The translations under genes were made by a program, and so were the position numbers. Below are positions 35,786 to 52,183 of a stretch of 64,000 nt of DNA, piece after piece. The first letter of the stretch is position 1, and every line of letters starts with the position of its first letter. Under the pieces are notes generated by a model. The model worked only from the letters and a program-made list of their open reading frames with translations. It searched no databases and was not told the origin of the DNA. This DNA comes from Methanocellales archaeon (GTDB taxonomy: Archaea > Halobacteriota > UBA148 > JAUWXC01): positions 1 to 64,000 of the forward strand of contig JAUWQV010000003.1 of NCBI GenBank assembly GCA_030610945.1, read 5' to 3'.

Positions 35786-36442
35786 ATGGTCTTTAAATTG
35801 ATAAGCGAAATCGTAAAAGGGAACATTGTGCTCCAAGAACTGTCAGGTGGTATCAGAGATATGTACAAAACCTCCAGGGAGATGTACAAGGACGTATGGA
35901 TAGCGATACTGACCAAAGATAAAGACCTGGCGCAGAGAGCTCTGAAGAGAGATGATGAAGTCAATGCCAAAGAAGTAAAAATTAGAGAGAATTCATTGAA
36001 ATATATAGCGACATCGATGATTCCCGTGGATGTCACGATCGCTTTTTCCATGATAGATCTGGCATCGATATTGGAATCAATGGCGGACTATGCTTGTGTG
36101 TTGGCCAAGATGTGTATTGGCGGCAGAATAAGATATGAAAAAGGGGAAAAGTACTCAAAGATGCTGGAAAAAGCCGACCAAATCATTGTGGATATGTTTG
36201 ACAATGCGCTTGTTGCCCTGGAAGAAGAGGACAGAAAGAGGGCCAAGAAAGTCGTGAAGCAATATGACGATGTGCTTAATCTTCAGAAAGAGCTAATGGA
36301 AAAAATAGACGAGGATAAAAGAATAGAGCCGGGCAGAGCGGGCGGATTGGTGATGGCAATGAACAGCTTTGCACGGATTGGCAGGAAATTGAGTTTGGTT
36401 GCAGGCTGCGTTTTAAAACCATATCCGATGTTGAGGCATTGA
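35786..36442 (+). CDS. PhoU-domain protein
   Basis: 218 residues, all-helical, with two related three-helix blocks. The segments [52 protein letters not shown] follow the PhoU pattern (E-x-IRR-like and helical E/D metal sites). It probably regulates the adjacent Na/Pi-type transporter, as PhoU proteins do for Pst and NptA. It starts 9 bp after the transporter stop with GGTGG upstream, and overlaps the region before mptA. Confidence 0.8.
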
Positions 36443-36444
36443 GC

Positions 36445-37371
36445 ATGCGTTTACCAGATGCACAGGCAAGACACCCAGATGTTCTGATTGACCTGACAAG
36501 AGTGGGCGTCACCAACGTGAAGAAACTTGTAGAGGTCGCCAGAGAAGGAAAGAGGCCGGTCATTCTAATTTCCACATTTGATGTATTTGTGGACCTGCCT
36601 TCTGATAGGAAGGGTGCCAACCTCTCACGTAATTTTGAGGCGATCGATGAGGTACTGGAAGAAGCGATAGCCGCGCCAGTTTATGAGATTGAAGAACTCT
36701 GCAGCGAGGTGGCGCGCCGCCTGCTTAATCGGCACGAGTATGCTTCTAAGGCAGAGGTAAGAATGAGGAGCGAATACATCATCAAGCACCAAACACCCAA
36801 GACGAAAACTAAATGCCAGGAAGTGGTGAAGATCTTCGCTGGTGCAGTTGCCACCAGGGCAGAGGAGAGTGTCAGAAAGACAGTAGGCGTAGAAGTGGTT
36901 GGCATGACCGCCTGTCCATGCGTGCAGGAAATCATGCGCGAGAAGGCTAAAAACGAATTGCTAGAATTAAACGTACCGGAGGCAGCGATTAACGCATTTC
37001 TCGATAAGATTCCAATGGCCACGCACAATCAGAGGGGGAAAGGGTCAGTATCTATCGAAGTGCATGAAGGGCAGGATGTCAGGATAGAGAAACTGATTGA
37101 GGTAATAAAGAACTCGATGAGCTCACAGATTTATGAATTATTGAAGCGCCCTGATGAAATCTTCGTTGTAGAAAGTGCACACAGAAATCCTAAATTTGCA
37201 GAGGATTGTGTAAGGCTGATGGCACAGATGGTCGTGCAGACGTTCCAAAATCTGCCAGATGAATCCATTGTGACGATTAAACAGACCAACGAGGAGAGCA
37301 TTCATCAGCACGATGTATTTGCAGAGCGCATAGCCACGATGGGCGAGCTCAGGTCAGAGATGTCACAGTAA
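36445..37371 (+). CDS. mptA: GTP cyclohydrolase MptA (type IV)
   Basis: 308 residues of the GCYH-IB/MptA family: [45 protein letters not shown] with the metal Cys, and [12 protein letters not shown] with the metal His. It opens GTP to 7,8-dihydroneopterin 2',3'-cyclic phosphate, the first step toward methanopterin (and archaeosine precursors). ATG 36445 lies just after the PhoU-like stop. The enzyme fits an organism using tetrahydromethanopterin. Confidence 0.95.
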
Positions 37372-37497: not shown

Positions 37498-38211
37498 ATG
37501 GCCGAATACAAACTTGGAGTATCAGAGCTGGACAAAATTCTCGGCGATGTCAGGGGTGGGTCGAACATAATGCTGATAGGTCCGGCAATGTGCAAGAAGG
37601 ATTCTCTGGTTTACGACATTGTACATGCAAGCCTTCTCCATGGAGAGAATGTCATCCTCGTGACGACAGAGGAAACAGGTAGCGGCATATTGAAATGGTT
37701 TAAACAACACGAGCTGGGGATAAACAGAGGGCAGCTTGGGATTGTGGACTGTGTCTCGACCTCGCTTGGTATAAGGGTCTCGGATACGGAAAACATAAAG
37801 ATGGCACCCAGCCCATTGGACCTAACTGGAATTGGAATTAAAATAAGTGAGTTCTTAAGGCAATTTAATGGGAGTGGAAAGCAAAAAACAAGATTAATTA
37901 TCAACTCCATATCGACGATACTGATGTATTCCAATTTACAAACTGTTTTTAGATTCCTGCATGTTTTCACAGGCCGGATTAAAGCTGCAGATGCTATTGG
38001 CATCTACGTGCTCGAGAACGGTATGCACGACGATAAAACCGTTGCAACGCTCAAGAAATTGTTTGACGGTGTGATTGAAATCAAAGAAGAAAATGACGAA
38101 TTCTTCATCAAGGCAATGGGATTAGGGGCGAAGCCAACCGGATGGATTGAGTACAATGTCGATAGAGCGGAAAGCATGCTGCAGACTACGCGTAGCTTAA
38201 ACAAAGTGTAA
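37498..38211 (+). CDS. KaiC/RAD55-like ATPase-fold protein 1 with degenerate P-loop
   Basis: 237 residues of the RecA superfamily: LGVSELDKILGDVRGGSNIMLIGPAMCKKDSL at the N-terminus, VILVTTEE, a Walker B-like RLIINSISTIL, and a C-terminal beta region (FDGVIEIKEENDEFFIKAMGLG). The Walker A reads GPAMCKKD: the glycine before Lys and the following Ser/Thr are both missing, so ATP hydrolysis is doubtful. A paralogue lies at 41322-42041. Related single-domain KaiC-like proteins include ArlH and haloarchaeal signal proteins; no partner genes of either are present. Confidence 0.8.
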   Translation: MAEYKLGVSELDKILGDVRGGSNIMLIGPAMCKKDSLVYDIVHASLLHGENVILVTTEETGSGILKWFKQHELGINRGQLGIVDCVSTSLGIRVSDTENIKMAPSPLDLTGIGIKISEFLRQFNGSGKQKTRLIINSISTILMYSNLQTVFRFLHVFTGRIKAADAIGIYVLENGMHDDKTVATLKKLFDGVIEIKEENDEFFIKAMGLGAKPTGWIEYNVDRAESMLQTTRSLNKV

Positions 38212-38252
38212 GCGTGGCGTGTCGCGTGTCACTGACCAATGAATTTGTTTAG
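38209..38252 (+). pseudogene. vestige of a RAM-domain gene start after ATPase 1
   Basis: The DNA right after ATPase 1 (TAAGCGTGGCGTGTCGCGTG...) matches 42011-42045, where it is both the end of ATPase 2 and the start of the RAM-domain gene. Here the frame opened by GTG 38214 reads only 12 residues before a stop. So the downstream gene existed in the ancestral unit and was lost in this copy. Confidence 0.5.
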
Positions 38253-38413
38253 ATGTAAATATGCCTCCTTCTTCCTTAACAATCATCTTCTTCATGATCA
38301 CATTCGATGGGAAGAGACCATAGGCCCAGCAAGGGCAGATGTGCCACATTAACTTTATACATCATGGTTCACTATAAAAGTCTGGATAGAAAAGAACTCA
38401 GGACGTAATAGAG

Positions 38414-38635
38414 ATGAAGAGAACATTTAGTGTTGTTGTAGAGAGAGATGAAGATAGATATTATGTTGCCTCAGTTCCAGAGCTCCCAGGCTGTCACACT
38501 CAAGCTAAAACTTTAGATGGATTAATTCGACGCATAAAAGAGGCCATACTATTATACCTCGACGTAGAGAAAGAAGCAAAGGATATCATCACAGAATTTG
38601 TCGGTGTCCAACTGGTAGAGGTAAATGAAGCTTAA
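38414..38635 (+). CDS. hicB: HicB-family antitoxin
   Basis: 73 residues: FSVVVERDEDRYYVASVPELPGCHTQAKTLDGLIRRIKEAILLYLD is the HicB core. First gene of a hicB-hicA pair overlapping by 11 bp. ACTATAAAAG about 38 bp upstream serves as TATA box. It is related to the 8911-9132 antitoxin but clearly diverged. Confidence 0.92.
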   Translation: MKRTFSVVVERDEDRYYVASVPELPGCHTQAKTLDGLIRRIKEAILLYLDVEKEAKDIITEFVGVQLVEVNEA

Positions 38636-38855
38636 ACCTCTTCCTCCAGGCAAACTTATCAAAATTTTAGAGAAGATAGGCTTTCAGAGAATGAGACAGA
38701 AGGGAGGTCATGTGTTTCTTAAACATCCTGATGGGAGAACCACCGTAGTACCAGTTCATAGAGGAGAAGAAATTGGAAGAGGCTTGCTGAGAAAAATTAT
38801 TAAAGACACTAGGCTCACAAGAGAGGAATTTTTGGAACTTGTTGAGGATACATAG
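38625..38855 (+). CDS. hicA: HicA-family mRNA interferase toxin
   Basis: 76 residues: PPGKLIKILEKIGFQRMRQKGGHVFLKHPDGRTTVVPVHRGEEIGRGLLRKIIKD, with the catalytic His in KGGH. Complete and apparently active. Its counterpart at 8673-8918 shares the layout. In the second island it lies between ATPase 1 and the exported proteins. Confidence 0.93.
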   Translation: MKLKPLPPGKLIKILEKIGFQRMRQKGGHVFLKHPDGRTTVVPVHRGEEIGRGLLRKIIKDTRLTREEFLELVEDT

Positions 38856-39369
38856 CACTCTTCTCAAGGACGTCTATTCTTCAGATAAAGATTAATCCAC
38901 GAAAAATATCGCAATAGTTAAAGCTCCATGACCATTATGATAGATGAATATGAACACATATTGTGTTCGATAGTATACAATTTTTGCTCAACAGAAACAA
39001 GTCTTTACGTTTTTGAATGGTAGAGTTTGACGTTCAGAAGTACTGAAAATAAAAATATCAAAAGATTTATATCTAAGTAATAGGTAAAATAATAAATGTC
39101 TGAGGGGATGGAAAAGTAAAAACGGTCGTTGAACTTCAGATCTAATTTTGGGATGGGTTGGATCAGGTTGAAGTATCCTCCTAGGAAGGGGTTGAGTATG
39201 AGTGAGGAAACTTTGAAAGAATGTAATTTGGATTGTGAATGTCAGATTGAAGGAATTTGTTGTGTAGATGTGCGTGAAAGTGGTAGCTCCTGCGAGGCTC
39301 GAAACCTGCAAGGGCAATACCCGTCCTAACGGATTAAAGGACGGAGTAACAAAATGGAGGAAAAAAATA
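38856..39369 (+). other. 514-bp gene-poor leader before an exported-protein gene
   Basis: Mostly AT-rich with no convincing gene. AGATTTATATC (about 39062-39072) is a TATA candidate. From there a leader of about 300 nt runs to the GTG at 39370. It holds a short Cys-rich frame (ATG 39198, 42 codons: TLKECNLDCECQIEGICCVD...) and a hairpin, CCGTCC (39321-39326) with GGACGG (39339-39344) and a 12-nt loop, 25 nt before the start. The hairpin and flanking CTGCGAGGCTCGAAACCTGC may be a regulatory RNA or the worn 3' end of an IS605-type tnpB; neither is proven. Confidence 0.4.
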
Positions 39370-40293
39370 GTGAACATAAAAGAGAAGAAGATAAACGCAT
39401 TCGGCAGGTCGATTTCGGCGATAGCGGTCGTCCTGATGCTACTCACGACAGGGATTGCGGGAGCGGCATTGGTGTCAGTCTACTTCACGACGGCAGGGAC
39501 TGTAAACGTTTCTGCGCCGTTAAGTGTCAGCCCAACAACCTATGAGGTGCCTTTAGTGGCAGGTAATACACACGAGGTAACACTTGAAGTAACCAACAGC
39601 GCAGATGTGGCGATACCCGCCAATTTGGTGACAGTAGCATCAGATGACATCTCTGTAACATACTTAGATGCAAATCGTGTGCCAATAGTACATCCAGTAG
39701 CAATTATGCCAGGAACCACAACAATATATGCACACATAGAACTAAGACCAGACCTTACAGGAGACGACTATGTAATCACAACAACGGCAGTACCAGTAGC
39801 AAATCGCAAAGCACTCATTCTTGAGAACAAAGACCCAGCAGATGCATGGAATATCATAGACGACAATAGAGTTGCAACATTGATATACAATCCACGTGGC
39901 AATAATTTCAACTACGCATTGATTGGCTCTGGTCTTGAGCCTAACACTGAATACAGTCTAATCTACTATGCAGACAAAGCAGAAAGATTTACGTACTGGG
40001 GTGGCGACAACCCAGGTGCACTAATCGGAATTGGAACAACTACTACTAACGGAAACCTTGCTATGGATGGCAGCATAAACCTTAACATGAACCTTCCGTG
40101 CCCACCAGATGCAAACATAGACGGAGTAGACTACACAATAGAGGACGGATACAGTAACGCACATGGTGCAAAGTTGTGGCTCGTACCATCATCTGATTAC
40201 AATGAAGGCGAAAAGAGAGTAACAGTATATAACCCAACCGACTATCTCTTCGAGACAGACCTAATCAGCTACACCGACACGAACATAAATTAA
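39370..40293 (+). CDS. exported beta-rich surface protein (TasA/SipW-type-like)
   Basis: 307 residues. A signal sequence (KKINAFGRSISAIAVVLMLLTTGIAGA, about 6-32) is followed by ALVSVYFTTAGTVNVSAPLSVSP, recalling the start of mature TasA/camelysin-type fibre proteins. Then an Ig-like domain (THEVTLEVTNSADVAIPANLVTVASDD) and a domain with NTEYSLIYYADK, like DUF-type surface modules. No C-terminal anchor. GTG start 39370 has TGGAGG 10 bp before; upstream frames are noise. It could form filaments or a matrix outside the cell; the TasA link is a weak inference. Confidence 0.6.
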   Translation: MNIKEKKINAFGRSISAIAVVLMLLTTGIAGAALVSVYFTTAGTVNVSAPLSVSPTTYEVPLVAGNTHEVTLEVTNSADVAIPANLVTVASDDISVTYLDANRVPIVHPVAIMPGTTTIYAHIELRPDLTGDDYVITTTAVPVANRKALILENKDPADAWNIIDDNRVATLIYNPRGNNFNYALIGSGLEPNTEYSLIYYADKAERFTYWGGDNPGALIGIGTTTTNGNLAMDGSINLNMNLPCPPDANIDGVDYTIEDGYSNAHGAKLWLVPSSDYNEGEKRVTVYNPTDYLFETDLISYTDTNIN

Positions 40294-40298
40294 ACAAT

Positions 40299-40330
40299 GA
40301 AGGGGTTTACGCCCCTTCCCATTTTATTTG
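40299..40330 (+). terminator. hairpin terminator after the exported-protein gene
   Basis: GAAGGGG (40299-40305) pairs perfectly with CCCCTTC (40312-40318) around a 6-nt loop, followed by a T-rich run (CATTTTATTTG). It begins 6 bp after the stop codon and separates the two surface-protein genes. Confidence 0.6.
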
Positions 40331-40372
40331 TTCCCTGCTCGGTTGAAATCCAAGAGGGGGCGGGAGAAGAAA

Positions 40373-41020
40373 ATGAAAAAAACGATCGCAGTCGGAATCG
40401 TGTCACTGTTGCTGCTGAGCGGTATCGCCGCATCCGCAGAGGACTGGGTGATACAAGGATTCCCGAATCAGATGACTGCTGGTTCAACTTACGAGGCATA
40501 TTACACGTTCGAGAGTACACCTAACATTCCAATACAAGTCAACCTAACTATTTCAAACTCACAGTTAAATGAGAGTGGAGAATGGCTCGTCAATATCACA
40601 ATAGATGGCAACGAAACTAATTGCACCGAGGTCAGTGCGGGCAATTTCAGCACAGGTGAATGCGATATTGAAGCAAGAGAGCACGACCTCAGGATAAGCG
40701 TATCATCGCTACCTAACATCCTGCCAGATACATACGACATTACTGTTGAGATATGGTCATCGAAAGTCATGGTCTATTCGGACATCACACACGTTGGGGG
40801 CGGAGGGGGTCGTAGGGCGACGCCAACGCCGAGTCCGACGCCTACCGTAACACCAACGATAACTCCAACCGTCACGCCTACAGTAATACCCACGCCAACA
40901 CCAATACCCACACCTACACCAGTACCAGTGACGGTCTTCGGAATGAGGGTTCCAGGCTTTGAAGCCGTATTTGCGATACTCGGATTACTGGCAGTGGCAT
41001 ATCTGATGAGAAGAAGATGA
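40373..41020 (+). CDS. PGF-CTERM surface glycoprotein
   Basis: 215 residues. Signal peptide (MKKTIAVGIVSLLLLSGIAASA), a beta-sandwich domain rich in N-glycosylation sequons (NLT, NES, NIT, NET, NCT, NFS), a GGGGG turn, a Thr/Pro linker of about 45 residues (TPTPSPTPTVTP repeats), then VPGFEAVFAILGLLAVAYLMRRR. The last part is the PGF-CTERM signal cut by archaeosortase A and lipid-linked to the membrane. ATG 40373 after GGGAGAAG. Dead copies of the same ending lie at 5375-5642 and 44241-44327. Confidence 0.92.
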   Translation: MKKTIAVGIVSLLLLSGIAASAEDWVIQGFPNQMTAGSTYEAYYTFESTPNIPIQVNLTISNSQLNESGEWLVNITIDGNETNCTEVSAGNFSTGECDIEAREHDLRISVSSLPNILPDTYDITVEIWSSKVMVYSDITHVGGGGGRRATPTPSPTPTVTPTITPTVTPTVIPTPTPIPTPTPVPVTVFGMRVPGFEAVFAILGLLAVAYLMRRR

Positions 41021-41196
41021 CCAGGAAGAAGATAACAAGGCCATACCCTTCTCGGGTAACGCTGCCCGCCTTCAACGCCAGCCTGCGAATCTGATGAATC
41101 AACCGATTAAGGGGGGCAAGTAATACATGCATGACGGCAAGATAGCAAAAAGGGTTTCGGGGAGCATCCTCAAGGTTGGCGTTATAGTTTTAGTGA

Positions 41197-41325
41197 ACGG
41201 TCTACTATCCAGGAGACGATTTCTACTCAGTCTGGGAGATGGAGCCATGTCATGGATACTGGCTCTACATGACGGCGGACGGTGTTATCATTCCTCCAGC
41301 GAGTCAACGTGAAGAGGTGGTATGA
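41197..41325 (+). pseudogene. C-terminal fragment of a lost exported protein
   Basis: After a TGA at 41194 one frame reads VYYPGDDFYSVWEME...GYWLYMTADGVIIPP...EEVV and stops at 41323-41325, overlapping the next ATG. The pattern GYW-h-YMTADG-h-h-h-P is familiar from C-termini of archaeal secreted and S-layer-like proteins. No start or N-terminal part is left. The 61-residue frame at 41127-41312 overlaps it in another phase and is probably not a gene. Confidence 0.5.
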
Positions 41326-42041
41326 ACAAATACAGGCTTGGAATAACGGAACTGGATAAAGTCTTAGGTGAAATAGAGAGCGGATCAAACATACTGCTGA
41401 TCGGACCGGCGATGTGCGGGAAAAATGCCCTGGTTTACGACATTTTGTGTGCAGGCCTCATCAATGGAGAGGGTAGCATCCTCGTGACGACGGAAGAGAT
41501 GGGTGGGAGCGTGCTCAAACAATTTAAACAAGACGAGCTGGATACGAGCATGATGCGAGTGGGAATTGTAGATTGCGTCTCGACCTTGCTGGGGATTGAA
41601 GTCGCAGATGTGGAAAACGTAAGGATGGCTACCAGCCCGTTGGACATAACCGGAATTGGCGTCAAGATAAGCCAGTTTTTTGAGCAGTTTCATATGAGAG
41701 ACCGCGTCCAGAAAACGAGGCTAATCGTTAACTCCCTGTCAACGATGTTGATGTACTCCAACCTACAGACCGTCTTCAGGTTTTTACACGTTTTCACAGG
41801 CCGGATTAAAGCTGCAGATGCTATTGGTATCTACGTGCTCGAAGCCGGTATGCATGATGATAGGACGGTTGCGACGCTCAAACCATTGTTCGACGGTGTA
41901 ATCGAGATAGGGGAAGAGGGCGATCAATTCTTTATCAGGGTAAAGATGGGAGCGAAGCCAACCGAGTGGATAGGGTACGATATCGATAGGACGAAAAACG
42001 TGACGCAACTTAAGCGTGGTGTGTCGCGTGTCAGTCGATGA
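41322..42041 (+). CDS. KaiC/RAD55-like ATPase-fold protein 2
   Basis: 239 residues, about the same length as and clearly paralogous to 37498-38211. Walker A is GPAMCGKN: the GK is kept but the Ser/Thr that ligates magnesium is Asn. Walker B-like RLIVNSLSTML. A stretch of 53 bp (41790-41842) matches the paralogue at 52 positions while the rest is much more diverged. Its 3' end overlaps the RAM-domain gene, suggesting joint translation. Role unknown; a nucleotide-sensing or assembly scaffold role is an inference. Confidence 0.8.
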   Translation: MNKYRLGITELDKVLGEIESGSNILLIGPAMCGKNALVYDILCAGLINGEGSILVTTEEMGGSVLKQFKQDELDTSMMRVGIVDCVSTLLGIEVADVENVRMATSPLDITGIGVKISQFFEQFHMRDRVQKTRLIVNSLSTMLMYSNLQTVFRFLHVFTGRIKAADAIGIYVLEAGMHDDRTVATLKPLFDGVIEIGEEGDQFFIRVKMGAKPTEWIGYDIDRTKNVTQLKRGVSRVSR

Positions 42042-42309
42042 ATCCCCTATTCAAACATTTCTTCTAGTCAAGATTGGTGAGAATAACGATGTCGACGAGG
42101 TATGTAGAATGATTGCAGAGGTTCACGAGGTGTCCTCGGCAGTTCATAAGGTGTTAGGACACTACGACCTCCTTGTCGAATGTGCTGGCGACACCAAACA
42201 CATTGAAGAGAAGATAGTAAATCCATTGACAGAAAGGCAGAATATCATTCATTCCCTGGTCGATATCAATTCATTAAATTTGGCATATGAATTTATTGAG
42301 AATCCATAA
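42028..42309 (+). CDS. stand-alone Lrp/AsnC-type (RAM) ligand-binding domain protein
   Basis: 93 residues. FLLVKIGENNDVDEVCRMIAEVHEVSSAVHKVLGHYDLLVECAGDTKHIEEKIVNPLTERQNIIHSLVDI follows the beta-alpha-beta-beta-alpha-beta RAM domain, with the GxYDL turn, of Lrp/AsnC regulators, but without the DNA-binding HTH. Such proteins bind small effectors and form rings. It overlaps ATPase 2 by 14 bp. Several GTG codons (42016, 42019, 42028) could start it; 42028 gives the family's usual length. Confidence 0.75.
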   Translation: MSVDESPIQTFLLVKIGENNDVDEVCRMIAEVHEVSSAVHKVLGHYDLLVECAGDTKHIEEKIVNPLTERQNIIHSLVDINSLNLAYEFIENP

Positions 42310-42445: not shown

Positions 42446-43267
42446 ATGAAAAAACACAAGATTGTGGCAAAAAGTTCAATACGCCATAGGCTTAAACGAA
42501 GTGTATCGAAAAGTGAATTTTCGGTACTTGAAGCGATTCGTTCCTCTAATCTAACAATATTTAGCCCCAGGGATATTGAGAGGCTGATGGGCATAGAAAA
42601 AAGGAAATGCTACCAATTGGTTTATCGGATGAAGCAGAAAGGGCTGATCTCGGAGATCGAAAATGGAAAGTACGTGGTAATTGTGCCACCACCAGAGCCA
42701 GACATCTTGAGCATTGCATCCTATCTGGTTTTTCCGGCATACGTCAGTTTTTGGACTGCCCTTAGTTTCCATGGATACACAGAGCAGTTACCGATGACCA
42801 TTTTCATCGCAACCACAAAGCGAAAGCAAAAAATGGAGTGCCATGGCACGCAAATCAGGTTTGTCACGTTATCGCCATCACGCTTTTTTGGATATGCTGA
42901 AGTGGATGGAATAATCATGGCCGATAAAGAGAAATCGCTCATCGACTCGTTACTGCTGCCAAGGTATGCTGGCGGTATGGTCGAAGTTGCCAAGTGTCTG
43001 TCCAACGCCTGGCGGGACGTCAACGTAAAAACACTCGTTGACTATGTGTTGCGTATGGAAAATAAATCGCTGACCAAGCGGATGGGGTATTTAATAAAAG
43101 TATTAGATTTGCCCATCAAGACATCGCTGATACGTCAATTAAAGGATAACATTGGAAAAGGGTATTCGCTGCTGGATCCATCAGGCCCCAAGGAGGGTGG
43201 CTATGATGAAGAGTGGATGCTAAGGCAAAATATCTCGATCAAACGAATCCGGGAGGCGATATATTGA
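42446..43267 (+). CDS. abiEi: AbiEi-family antitoxin/regulator
   Basis: 273 residues. N-terminal winged helix (SEFSVLEAIRSSNLTIFSPRDIERLMGIEKRKCYQLVYRMKQKGLI) and the AbiEi core (ILSIASYLVFPAYVSFWTALSFHGYTEQLP...IFIATTKRK...ADKEKSLIDSLLLPRYAGG). It represses its operon and neutralises AbiEii. Overlaps the toxin gene by 4 bp. A TTTTTATTATATTC box lies just upstream of the ATG, suggesting a leaderless or short leader. Confidence 0.9.
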   Translation: MKKHKIVAKSSIRHRLKRSVSKSEFSVLEAIRSSNLTIFSPRDIERLMGIEKRKCYQLVYRMKQKGLISEIENGKYVVIVPPPEPDILSIASYLVFPAYVSFWTALSFHGYTEQLPMTIFIATTKRKQKMECHGTQIRFVTLSPSRFFGYAEVDGIIMADKEKSLIDSLLLPRYAGGMVEVAKCLSNAWRDVNVKTLVDYVLRMENKSLTKRMGYLIKVLDLPIKTSLIRQLKDNIGKGYSLLDPSGPKEGGYDEEWMLRQNISIKRIREAIY

Positions 43268-44013
43268 TCACCAAAAGGCAGCTCGCCGAATTTGCGAGAA
43301 AAAATCACATCGGGCAGTATTACCAAGAGAAGGACTATTTGCAAACCACGTTCTTATATGCCATCTATCGCATCACCGATGAGATCGTGTTCAAGGGCGG
43401 TACGTGTCTAAAACTGGCATACAAATACCCACGATTCTCTGAGGATTTGGACTTTAACAGCACCCTTGAGCCCGGGACATTAAAGAAAATGGTACATCAA
43501 GCGCTAAAAAACATCGCACTCCTCGGCATGACGTTCAGCTTCGACAAAGAAGAACTGTTCGAAGAAGCCTATACGGCGAGGATTAGGTTCAAGGGGCCGC
43601 GATTTACCGGGAGCCGGATGTCGACAAATACCATACAAATAGATATCGGTGCACGCGGTGGCTCTATTCAGAAACCGCGATGGGTTCAGATCACGCCCGA
43701 ATATCCAGATGTGCCGACGTTCCTTTTGCTCGCGATGACCAAAGAGGAAATCTTGGCGGAAAAACTCAGGGCACTGTCGATGCGCTCTGCACCCAGAGAC
43801 CTGTTCGATGTTTGGTGTTTGATACAAGACGTTAAGATAAACCACTCGCTATTCGAGGCAAAGTTGTCCTCTGTCGGGTTGAAGCTTGGCAAGTTGAAGT
43901 TTCCGGAAAAAGCTGAATATGAAAGGGACATGAAGAATTTGTTGCCCATGTCACGTGTGCCCGATTATGAGCAGGTGGTGGACGACATAACAAGGGGGAT
44001 AGAACACCCCTAA
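43264..44013 (+). CDS. abiEii: AbiEii-family nucleotidyltransferase toxin
   Basis: 249 residues. FKGGTCLKLAYKYPRFSEDLDFN (about 44-66) is the AbiEii nucleotidyltransferase signature (GGTxLxL..RxSxDLDF). Then AEKLRALSMRSAPRDLFDVWCL. Type IV abortive-infection toxins of this family transfer nucleotides to tRNA. The TTG start at 43264 (TTGA overlap with AbiEi) is preceded by GGGAGGCG; upstream in-frame codons belong to abiEi. Full length. Confidence 0.92.
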   Translation: MITKRQLAEFARKNHIGQYYQEKDYLQTTFLYAIYRITDEIVFKGGTCLKLAYKYPRFSEDLDFNSTLEPGTLKKMVHQALKNIALLGMTFSFDKEELFEEAYTARIRFKGPRFTGSRMSTNTIQIDIGARGGSIQKPRWVQITPEYPDVPTFLLLAMTKEEILAEKLRALSMRSAPRDLFDVWCLIQDVKINHSLFEAKLSSVGLKLGKLKFPEKAEYERDMKNLLPMSRVPDYEQVVDDITRGIEHP

Positions 44014-52072: not shown

Positions 52073-52183
52073 GGGCTCGTAGCTCAGTTAGGCAGAGCAC
52101 CTGGCTTTTAACCAATGAAAGGAGTTTCTGCAAGGTCATGGAAAGAGACCAGGCGGCCAAGGGTTCAAATCCCTTCGAGCCCG
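52073..52183 (+). tRNA. tRNA-Lys (UUU) with a 37-nt intron
   Basis: Acceptor stem GGGCTCG (52073-52079) pairs with CGAGCCC (52176-52182). D arm GCTC...GAGC, anticodon stem CCTGG (52100-52104) with CCAGG (52149-52153), loop C-T-TTT-A-A giving anticodon UUU, T arm AAGGG-TTCAAAT-CCCTT. The intron is 52111-52147 if placed after position 37, the canonical site. No CCA is encoded. CATATCTA at 52041-52048 is a TATA candidate about 25 bp upstream. Confidence 0.92.

Follow-up and report, generated by a model that had tools for sequence, protein, structure and literature searches.

A DUF7504 KaiC-fold protein with an overlapping RAM-like follower at the end of surface-protein gene runs in a Methanocellales archaeon

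The window, a 64,000-nucleotide stretch of a Methanocellales contig (JAUWQV010000003.1; genome G000), carries two KaiC-fold genes which, like all features described below, lie on the forward strand. Their products, K1 (37498..38211, 237 aa) and K2 (41322..42041, 239 aa), share 67% amino acid identity, and this paralogy, which is beyond chance, had already been recognized in an earlier, sequence-only reading of the locus. Both proteins cover the whole DUF7504 profile (PF24336, positions 1-179 of 179) with 98.0 and 108.1 bits, respectively, against a gathering cut-off of 27, and both exceed the cut-off of the Pfam KaiC model (34.1 and 34.7 bits; cut-off 26.6). The predicted model of K2 (pLDDT 85.6) is KaiC-like. 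A Foldseek search retrieved Sulfolobus FlaH as the best match by E-value (E 2.4e-11, TM 0.60) and PH0284 with a TM of up to 0.79 by query length, which is consistent with a RecA-like fold of the KaiC/RAD55 type.

Active KaiC/RecA-type ATPases are marked by the Walker A motif GxxxxGK[ST] and a Walker B aspartate. K1 has a degraded Walker A (GPAMCKKD), and that of K2 reads GPAMCGKN. In an alignment of 52 rows (50 of the 80 named DUF7504 loci, K1 and K2), the Walker A Ser/Thr is replaced by Asp, Glu or Asn in all 52 rows, so that none has the marks of an active enzyme. The presumed Walker B Asp, whose position is our own assignment in the alignment, has become Asn in 46 of the 52 and is kept in three. 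As the nucleotide motifs are lost in every aligned row, ATPase activity is unlikely for both K1 and K2, and the name of ATPase originally given to them was not confirmed. A segment around residues 138-161 is strictly conserved. K2 is a predicted pseudo-ATPase which, from the alignment and the predicted model, combines a KaiC fold with lost ATPase motifs as inactivated KaiC (iKaiC) domains do.

K2 is followed by a short ORF (42016..42309, up to 97 aa) which starts at a GTG at 42016, or alternatively at 42028, and overlaps the end of K2. Its coordinates place it in the +1 frame relative to K2 in G000, G001 and G009, and a frameshift fusion was set aside, overlapping-start coupling accounting for this frame. 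The sequence-only reading had taken the ORF for a RAM effector domain; the overlap is real and beyond chance, and the domain assignment is likely. The window protein scores 16.3 bits with the Pfam RAM model (PF01037) against a cut-off of 25, the G001 orthologue 13.0 bits, and that of G009 is not matched. A LysM model gives an E-value of 2e-4 on the window protein. A profile built from the follower weakly matches two proteins elsewhere (E 4.4e-4 and 9.5e-4), both of Lrp/AsnC type, one being above the cut-offs for the AsnC HTH domain and PF01037 and the other near-identical to it. A sequence search of the PDB gave no RAM match. The AlphaFold model is poor (pLDDT 58.5), and a fold search with it, meaningless at this score, listed no RAM among its matches.

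In a profile search, the follower was found in 4 of 246 genomes of the phylum, all of this order. It is broken in G002 and intact beside a K gene in G000, G001 and G009, which represent two families, two of the three loci being orthologous. dN/dS ranges from 0.15 to 0.17 for K2 and from 0.17 to 0.29 for the follower, the ratios involving G009 being rough because dS there reaches 1.0 to 1.6. These values indicate that the RAM-like ORF, which is not present in the fusion-linked paralogues described below, is under purifying selection. Such a follower is missing from G003, a single-contig assembly that is 86% complete, so that the pair is dispensable. On the tree, the RAM-linked K proteins require two changes. 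A scan of viral contigs with the follower profile, aimed at a viral origin of the pair, returned 262 pattern matches, none confirmed.

Several genes separate K1 from K2. HicB (38414-38635, 40.5 bits) and HicA (38625-38855, 71.1 bits) both exceed their Pfam cut-offs of 27, and HicBA was thus rightly named; the pair (38414..38855) is probably a neighbour outside any module. An exported protein of about 307 aa follows (39370..40293), probably read from a GTG, the listed ORF being longer (from 39268). A provirus-like region of G003 encodes a pair of proteins, the first of which is matched by the N-terminal part of this exported protein. Queried as 39268-40290, the ORF remained without a family match at E<=1 in both Pfam and NCBIfam, the TasA/camelysin family (PF12389) included, and phmmer found no match to the camelysin-family proteins of G009; its description as TasA-like is not borne out. 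(The TASA profile, built with the window protein included, was left out as evidence.) Nor did a structured leader hold up: region 39080-39369 is not unusually structured (z = -1.05), 23 of 200 shuffled sequences folding equally well, and it has neither an Rfam family nor a second copy in the genome. The archaeal TATA-like pattern TTTAWATA occurs five times in the window, as expected by chance, and not at the exported-gene locus; a sigma-70-type scan, a model not apt for archaea, found 6 matches against 6.8 expected by chance.

The next exported protein (40373..41020), identified from its translation, carries the PGF-CTERM domain ascribed to it (PF18204, 39.7 bits; cut-off 18.8). What had been described as the tail of another exported protein is the remnant of an adhesin gene (41127..41325), with a head of 28 aa (41127-41210) and, in another frame, a tail of 40 aa (41203-41325); the intact version in G001 encodes 921 aa. 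Downstream of the follower lies an AbiEi/AbiEii toxin-antitoxin pair (42446..44013; first ORF 42446-43267, second listed from 43213), likewise a neighbour.

The tail of the adhesin remnant ends in a four-nucleotide ATGA overlap with the start of K2, and the same overlap with an exported gene is found in G001 and G009, that is, at 3/3 intact K-RAM loci, all of which lie at the 3' end of runs of exported-protein genes. Both overlaps of K2, upstream and downstream, persist in the two families, whose upstream surface genes differ. Among the 80 named loci, which do not include that of the window, an exported gene lies directly upstream at 2/2 intact RAM-linked loci versus 0/47 co-directional neighbours of other DUF7504 loci, as judged with a crude predictor and with the broken G002 locus (L055) counted here as K1 class and in the locus-order count as RAM class. 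This predictor called one of the three camelysin-family proteins of G009, the signal peptidase and a 311-aa protein there, together with an apparent acetyltransferase-like ORF in G001. Linkage of the K2-RAM pair to surface proteins is therefore supported, albeit by a small number of loci, of which two are orthologues.

The proposed module bracketed by two paralogues fares differently. K1 belongs to the neighbourhood of mptA (GTP cyclohydrolase; 36439..37371), after which it is placed in G000, G001, G002 and G003, whereas K2 of the sister genome G001 lies on another contig, and the corresponding site is vacant in G000 and G003. Because K1 stays with mptA and the position of K2 differs between G000 and G001, a module bracketed by the two is not supported. 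The vestige of a follower noticed after K1 is genuine: 38209..38231 matches the K2/RAM junction at 42011-42033 in 22 of 23 nucleotides, and in G002 the K1 orthologue precedes two RAM pieces lacking the middle, a longer broken form of it.

DUF7504 also has another setting. In 58 of the 80 loci, it heads a three-gene unit in which it is followed by an inactive-KaiC/Ras-like-GTPase fusion and then by a Roadblock protein, an arrangement found directly downstream of neither K1 nor K2. Two fusion proteins that were scanned contain KaiC and Arf/Ras domains, and GTPase motif patterns are present in 68/68 fusion rows, although these rows, like the 96 loci scanned, contain duplicates of the same places. 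A pattern-based P-loop count for the KaiC part (57/68) was discarded, as the pattern caught a GGxPxGKS stretch before the true P-loop place. Four loci have the fusion without Roadblock, two of which (L057, L079) reach the contig end, and 15 of the 80 were classed as 'none', three of these with fewer than 100 bases after the gene. One locus of the latter class, L061, shows short pieces of fusion and Roadblock only. The unit, widespread and little studied, is the usual setting of the family in ANME-2, Methanoperedens and other Methanosarcinales, and with its fusion and Roadblock it is a candidate GTPase switch in archaea important for methane. It is not obligate, since four genera of cultured Methanosarcinaceae (Methanomethylovorans, Methanolobus, Methanococcoides and Methanohalophilus) have DUF7504 without an adjoining fusion. 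In the literature consulted (titles, abstract openings and searched passages, the key archaeal KaiC review not among them), the combination of a KaiC/Ras-like-GTPase fusion with Roadblock was not described.

KaiC-like proteins of archaea are regarded as signaling hubs, and Makarova, Galperin and Koonin reportedly included iKaiC domains among them in 2017. K2 resembles such hubs in its KaiC fold, its lost nucleotide motifs and its link to a sensor or output module. It departs from the iKaiC hubs as described in passages of PMC5847659, where that work is cited, by its overlapping stand-alone RAM-like partner and its coupling to adhesin operons. Passages of PMC13286277 pair a KaiC-like protein of Haloferax, CirA, with the Lrp/AsnC-family CsmR, and both influence archaella and cell shape. 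CsmR binds DNA as a regulator; the follower has about 97 aa, and Pfam found no HTH domain in it. The GTPase and Roadblock genes of the DUF7504 unit recall the Myxococcus pair MglA/MglB, a Ras-like GTPase and its Roadblock GAP (PMC4316618), the archaeal GTPase differing in its fusion to a KaiC-like domain and in the DUF7504 gene ahead of it; KaiC is not mentioned in the text of PMC4316618. While the exported protein of the window is not detectably of the camelysin family, the G009 K2-RAM locus is reminiscent of TasA/camelysin with SipW: it encodes a signal-peptidase-like protein (Peptidase_S24, 30.9 bits; Peptidase_S26, 19.7 bits, below cut-off) alongside three members of the camelysin family (45-57 bits).

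Based on predicted fold, motif loss, paralogy, conserved overlaps, purifying selection and surface-gene linkage, we tentatively favor, at a little short of an even chance, that the K2-RAM pair is a duplicate of the first subunit of the DUF7504 unit retooled as a sensor-adaptor for adhesin operons. K1 and K2 would be lineage-specific duplicates of this subunit, one of which would have gained the RAM-like follower and taken a 3'-terminal place in surface operons of the adhesin type, its start overlapping the last exported gene. The RAM-like protein may bind a small molecule or form a ligand-gated oligomer, and K2 may bind both it and the normal partner of DUF7504, either the GTPase fusion or a paralogue. 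The pair would thereby tie adhesin production or activity to the regulatory state of the cell; the sequence-only reading had suggested that RAM and the KaiC-fold protein regulate or assemble a cell-surface structure. In the window, the module is incomplete, as the adhesin gene directly upstream of K2 is broken, and the supposed partner may be absent, since the fusion was not found in G000 (82% complete). The pair, a pseudo-ATPase with a small sensor-like protein, is a concrete and testable one with coupling to surface proteins, possibly linking sensing to surface display.

Rather unlikely, yet the strongest competitor, is that the pair is a redundant passenger, carried along with relocating surface-gene cassettes and kept by gene conversion, with no special role at the surface. 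The cassette does occupy different chromosomal sites, K2 persists in the window beside a decayed adhesin, and the follower of K1 has been lost or broken in four species. Gene conversion between paralogues is also apparent: G001 K1 and KA share 52/52 codons of identical residues over alignment columns 145-200, a proportion that falls to 35%, 56% and 60% in the remaining three blocks; for G009 K2 and KA, it is 97% across the first 80 columns and 69-86% elsewhere. Against a passenger stand the purifying selection on a RAM-like ORF missing from the fusion-linked paralogues and the retention of both overlaps in two families whose upstream surface genes differ.

The sensor-adaptor reading may be extended in a form that we consider doubtful. 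DUF7504, the fusion and Roadblock would constitute a so far undescribed GTPase switch of archaea with KaiC-fold proteins as its scaffold, into which the K2-RAM pair, as a swap-in subunit deployed with adhesin cassettes, would plug a ligand sensor. Surface display would then be set by a KaiC-GTPase switch.

It is improbable that the stretch is a mobile defence or toxin-antitoxin island in which the genes of the KaiC-fold proteins form an accessory mixture with HicBA and AbiE. The two toxin-antitoxin pairs flank the exported genes and K2-RAM, and the related exported pair of G003 has integrase and terminase genes in its region; the upstream neighbours of K1 are nevertheless unchanged in four species, and no toxin-antitoxin family was found in eight scanned neighbours of K2-RAM in G001 and G009. 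In G001, an ORF with a nucleotidyltransferase domain lies about 15 kb from K2.

Least probable is that K2 assembles surface fibers as ArlH (FlaH), the KaiC-fold part of archaellum and pilus machines, would: the nucleotide motifs are lost, K1 and K2 score 29.0 and 29.3 bits with the NCBIfam FlaH model (PRK06067.1) against a cut-off of 194, and no pilus or archaellum family was found in 15 Pfam-scanned neighbours (7 in the window, 3 in G001, 5 in G009), even though the predicted K2 fold is closest by E-value to Sulfolobus FlaH and passages of PMC4858521 report KaiC-like genes near type IV pilus loci.

Gene order supports a link to surface proteins for the gene pair formed by K2 (41322-42041, forward strand), a DUF7504/KaiC-fold gene, and the RAM-like follower ORF which overlaps its end (42016-42309), as the sequence-only reading had suspected. 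In two genomes of the same order, G001 and G009, which represent two families, the exported gene immediately upstream shares an ATGA overlap with the start of K2. Of the same adhesin as in G001, the window retains a tail that terminates in an identical ATGA, most of the gene being gone and its head and tail lying in different frames. The upstream genes of G009 differ, encoding three proteins of the camelysin family, one that resembles signal peptidases and one further exported protein. Among 80 named DUF7504 loci, with exported proteins called by a crude rule and direct upstream neighbors taken as co-directional genes within 200 nt, such a neighbor is exported at 2/2 intact RAM-linked loci versus 0/47 other loci, the former being few and partly orthologous. 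Within 5 kb, the same crude rule gives 6/15 exported genes at RAM-linked loci versus 39/744 at the others (6/154 elsewhere in the stretches of the order, window included). A PGF-CTERM pattern within 5 kb occurs at a single one of the 80 loci, that of G001.

The ATGA-coupled adhesin is a better candidate partner for K2-RAM than the two other exported neighbors of the window. A pair related to these (the second protein by eye), a 312-aa exported protein and a PGF-CTERM protein, is found in G003 (L154:1402-9604), another genome of the order, in a provirus-like stretch of 15 kb. Since no K gene was seen in this stretch, which carries integrase and terminase genes, the two window genes may have arrived independently of K2-RAM. 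A terminator-like hairpin with a T-rich tail lies between them (40299-40318). In G001, a nucleotidyltransferase-domain ORF and an adjoining small ORF, perhaps a toxin-antitoxin pair, are located ~15 kb from K2 (L142:8512-9478).

The proposal that K2 and its paralogue K1 (37498-38211, forward strand) bracket one module did not hold, K1 being preceded by mptA in the window as in G001, G002 and G003, and the K2 of G001 being on a different contig from K1. There, K2 and RAM follow, in order, genes for a 936-aa exported, a 237-aa PGF-CTERM and a 921-aa exported protein. The genes flanking this run and an adjacent 248-aa ORF are direct neighbors in G000 (the genome of the window) and G003, 44 nt apart, which makes it an occupied/empty site. 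The exported-K2-RAM stretch of the window has K1 on one side and on the other a gene that is M50-like (25.2 bits against a cut-off of 26) and whose counterpart in G002 was located by eye after K1 and a broken follower. In the protein tree, the four K1 cluster as sister to the K2 of G000 and G001 (support 91 at full length; 82 for the N-terminal part, which leaves it open). From tree and placements together, the duplication in this genus predates the split of these species, and it was a local event that brought K1 and K2 close to each other in the window. The K2 of G009 groups with a DUF7504 copy of its own genome which adjoins a GTPase fusion gene, so that the RAM label requires two changes on the tree. 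This position is muddied by gene conversion, 97% of codons being shared with that copy in the first 80 columns. Likewise, G001 K1 and its fusion-linked copy share 52/52 identical codons of identical residues in columns 145-200, versus 35%, 56% and 60% in the other three blocks. Such conversion within one genome is recurrent among DUF7504 paralogues (window 37498-38208 and 41322-42038; L037, L038, L042, L043).

The vestige of the follower noticed behind K1 is real. A few dozen nt of the RAM start region are retained 3' of K1 in the window, G001 and G003, and G002 (63% complete; K1 contig of 4,888 bases) has two RAM pieces with the middle absent. As the K2 tail and the RAM start occupy common bases, it is G002 which points to an ancestral K1-RAM pair.

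K1 (237 aa) and K2 (239 aa) share 67% identity, and both match DUF7504 in Pfam, KaiC matches being weaker. For K2, structure prediction confidently gives a KaiC-type fold (pLDDT 85.6), and its best PDB matches include FlaH and PH0284. The label "ATPase" is nevertheless probably wrong. In an alignment of 52 rows, made up of 50 relatives from the 80 named loci together with K1 and K2, the Walker-A Lys is never followed by Ser/Thr (Glu 29, Asp 21, Asn 2), the position we read as the Walker-B Asp is Asn in 46/52, and the Gly preceding the Lys is also gone in K1 and 10 other rows. These proteins resemble KaiC domains that have been inactivated.

The follower, described initially as a RAM-type effector, is likely a RAM domain, but this identity is not secure: it scores 16.3 bits against PF01037 (cut-off 25), with a LysM model at E 2e-4, the G001 follower scores 13.0 bits, that of G009 has no match, and the AlphaFold model is poor. 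Two other genomes each encode a single 157-aa protein matched by its profile (E 4.4e-4 and 9.5e-4); the one scanned contains an AsnC-type HTH and PF01037, both above cut-off, and the other is near-identical. Both G001 (82% identity) and G009 (62%) have a conserved copy of the follower, which is under purifying selection (dN/dS 0.17-0.29 over 84-87 codons). It occurs in 4/246 genomes of the phylum, all of this order and one broken; none was confirmed in the viral contigs scanned.

Elsewhere, DUF7504 is followed by a fusion of a KaiC-like N-terminus to an Arf/Ras-like GTPase and by Roadblock in 58/80 named loci, and by the fusion with no Roadblock seen in 4 more, 2 at contig ends. This three-gene unit is conserved in methanogen-related archaea, including ANME-2, Methanoperedens and Methanosarcinaceae (e.g., L041:6081-8324). 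A fixed unit is argued against by Methanomethylovorans, Methanolobus, Methanococcoides and Methanohalophilus, four Methanosarcinaceae genera with DUF7504 loci lacking an adjoining fusion. In the fusion (two proteins scanned with Pfam), the KaiC half has, by our reading of the consensus, no P-loop at the usual place, and the GTPase half retains GxxxxGK[ST], DxxG and [NT][KR]xD in 68/68 rows, duplicates included. DUF7504 is not mentioned in the literature searched, and titles, abstract openings and searched passages contain no description of the combination, which may be published, since the main paper on KaiC-like hubs fell outside the search. In G003, two radical SAM/SPASM proteins are encoded behind the Roadblock gene (L041:8697-11094).

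In the best reading, K2 would be a non-hydrolyzing adaptor and RAM its ligand-responsive partner, both would be produced along with the adhesin, and K2 would still be able to contact partners of the DUF7504 family. There is precedent in Haloferax, where CirA, a KaiC-like protein, and CsmR, a regulator of the Lrp/AsnC type, influence archaella and cell shape in overlapping ways (PMC13286277). In archaea, genes for KaiC-like and Roadblock proteins are also reported in the vicinity of type IV pilus loci (PMC4858521). Three observations count against this mechanism: a search of G000 yielded no GTPase fusion, G003 is devoid of the RAM follower and the adhesin of the window is broken. The main rival is that K2-RAM is a passenger duplicate.

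Elsewhere in the window, Rfam identifies a tRNA of 111 nt (52073-52183, 60 bits), missed by ARAGORN in its bacterial setting, whose length suggests that it contains an intron.
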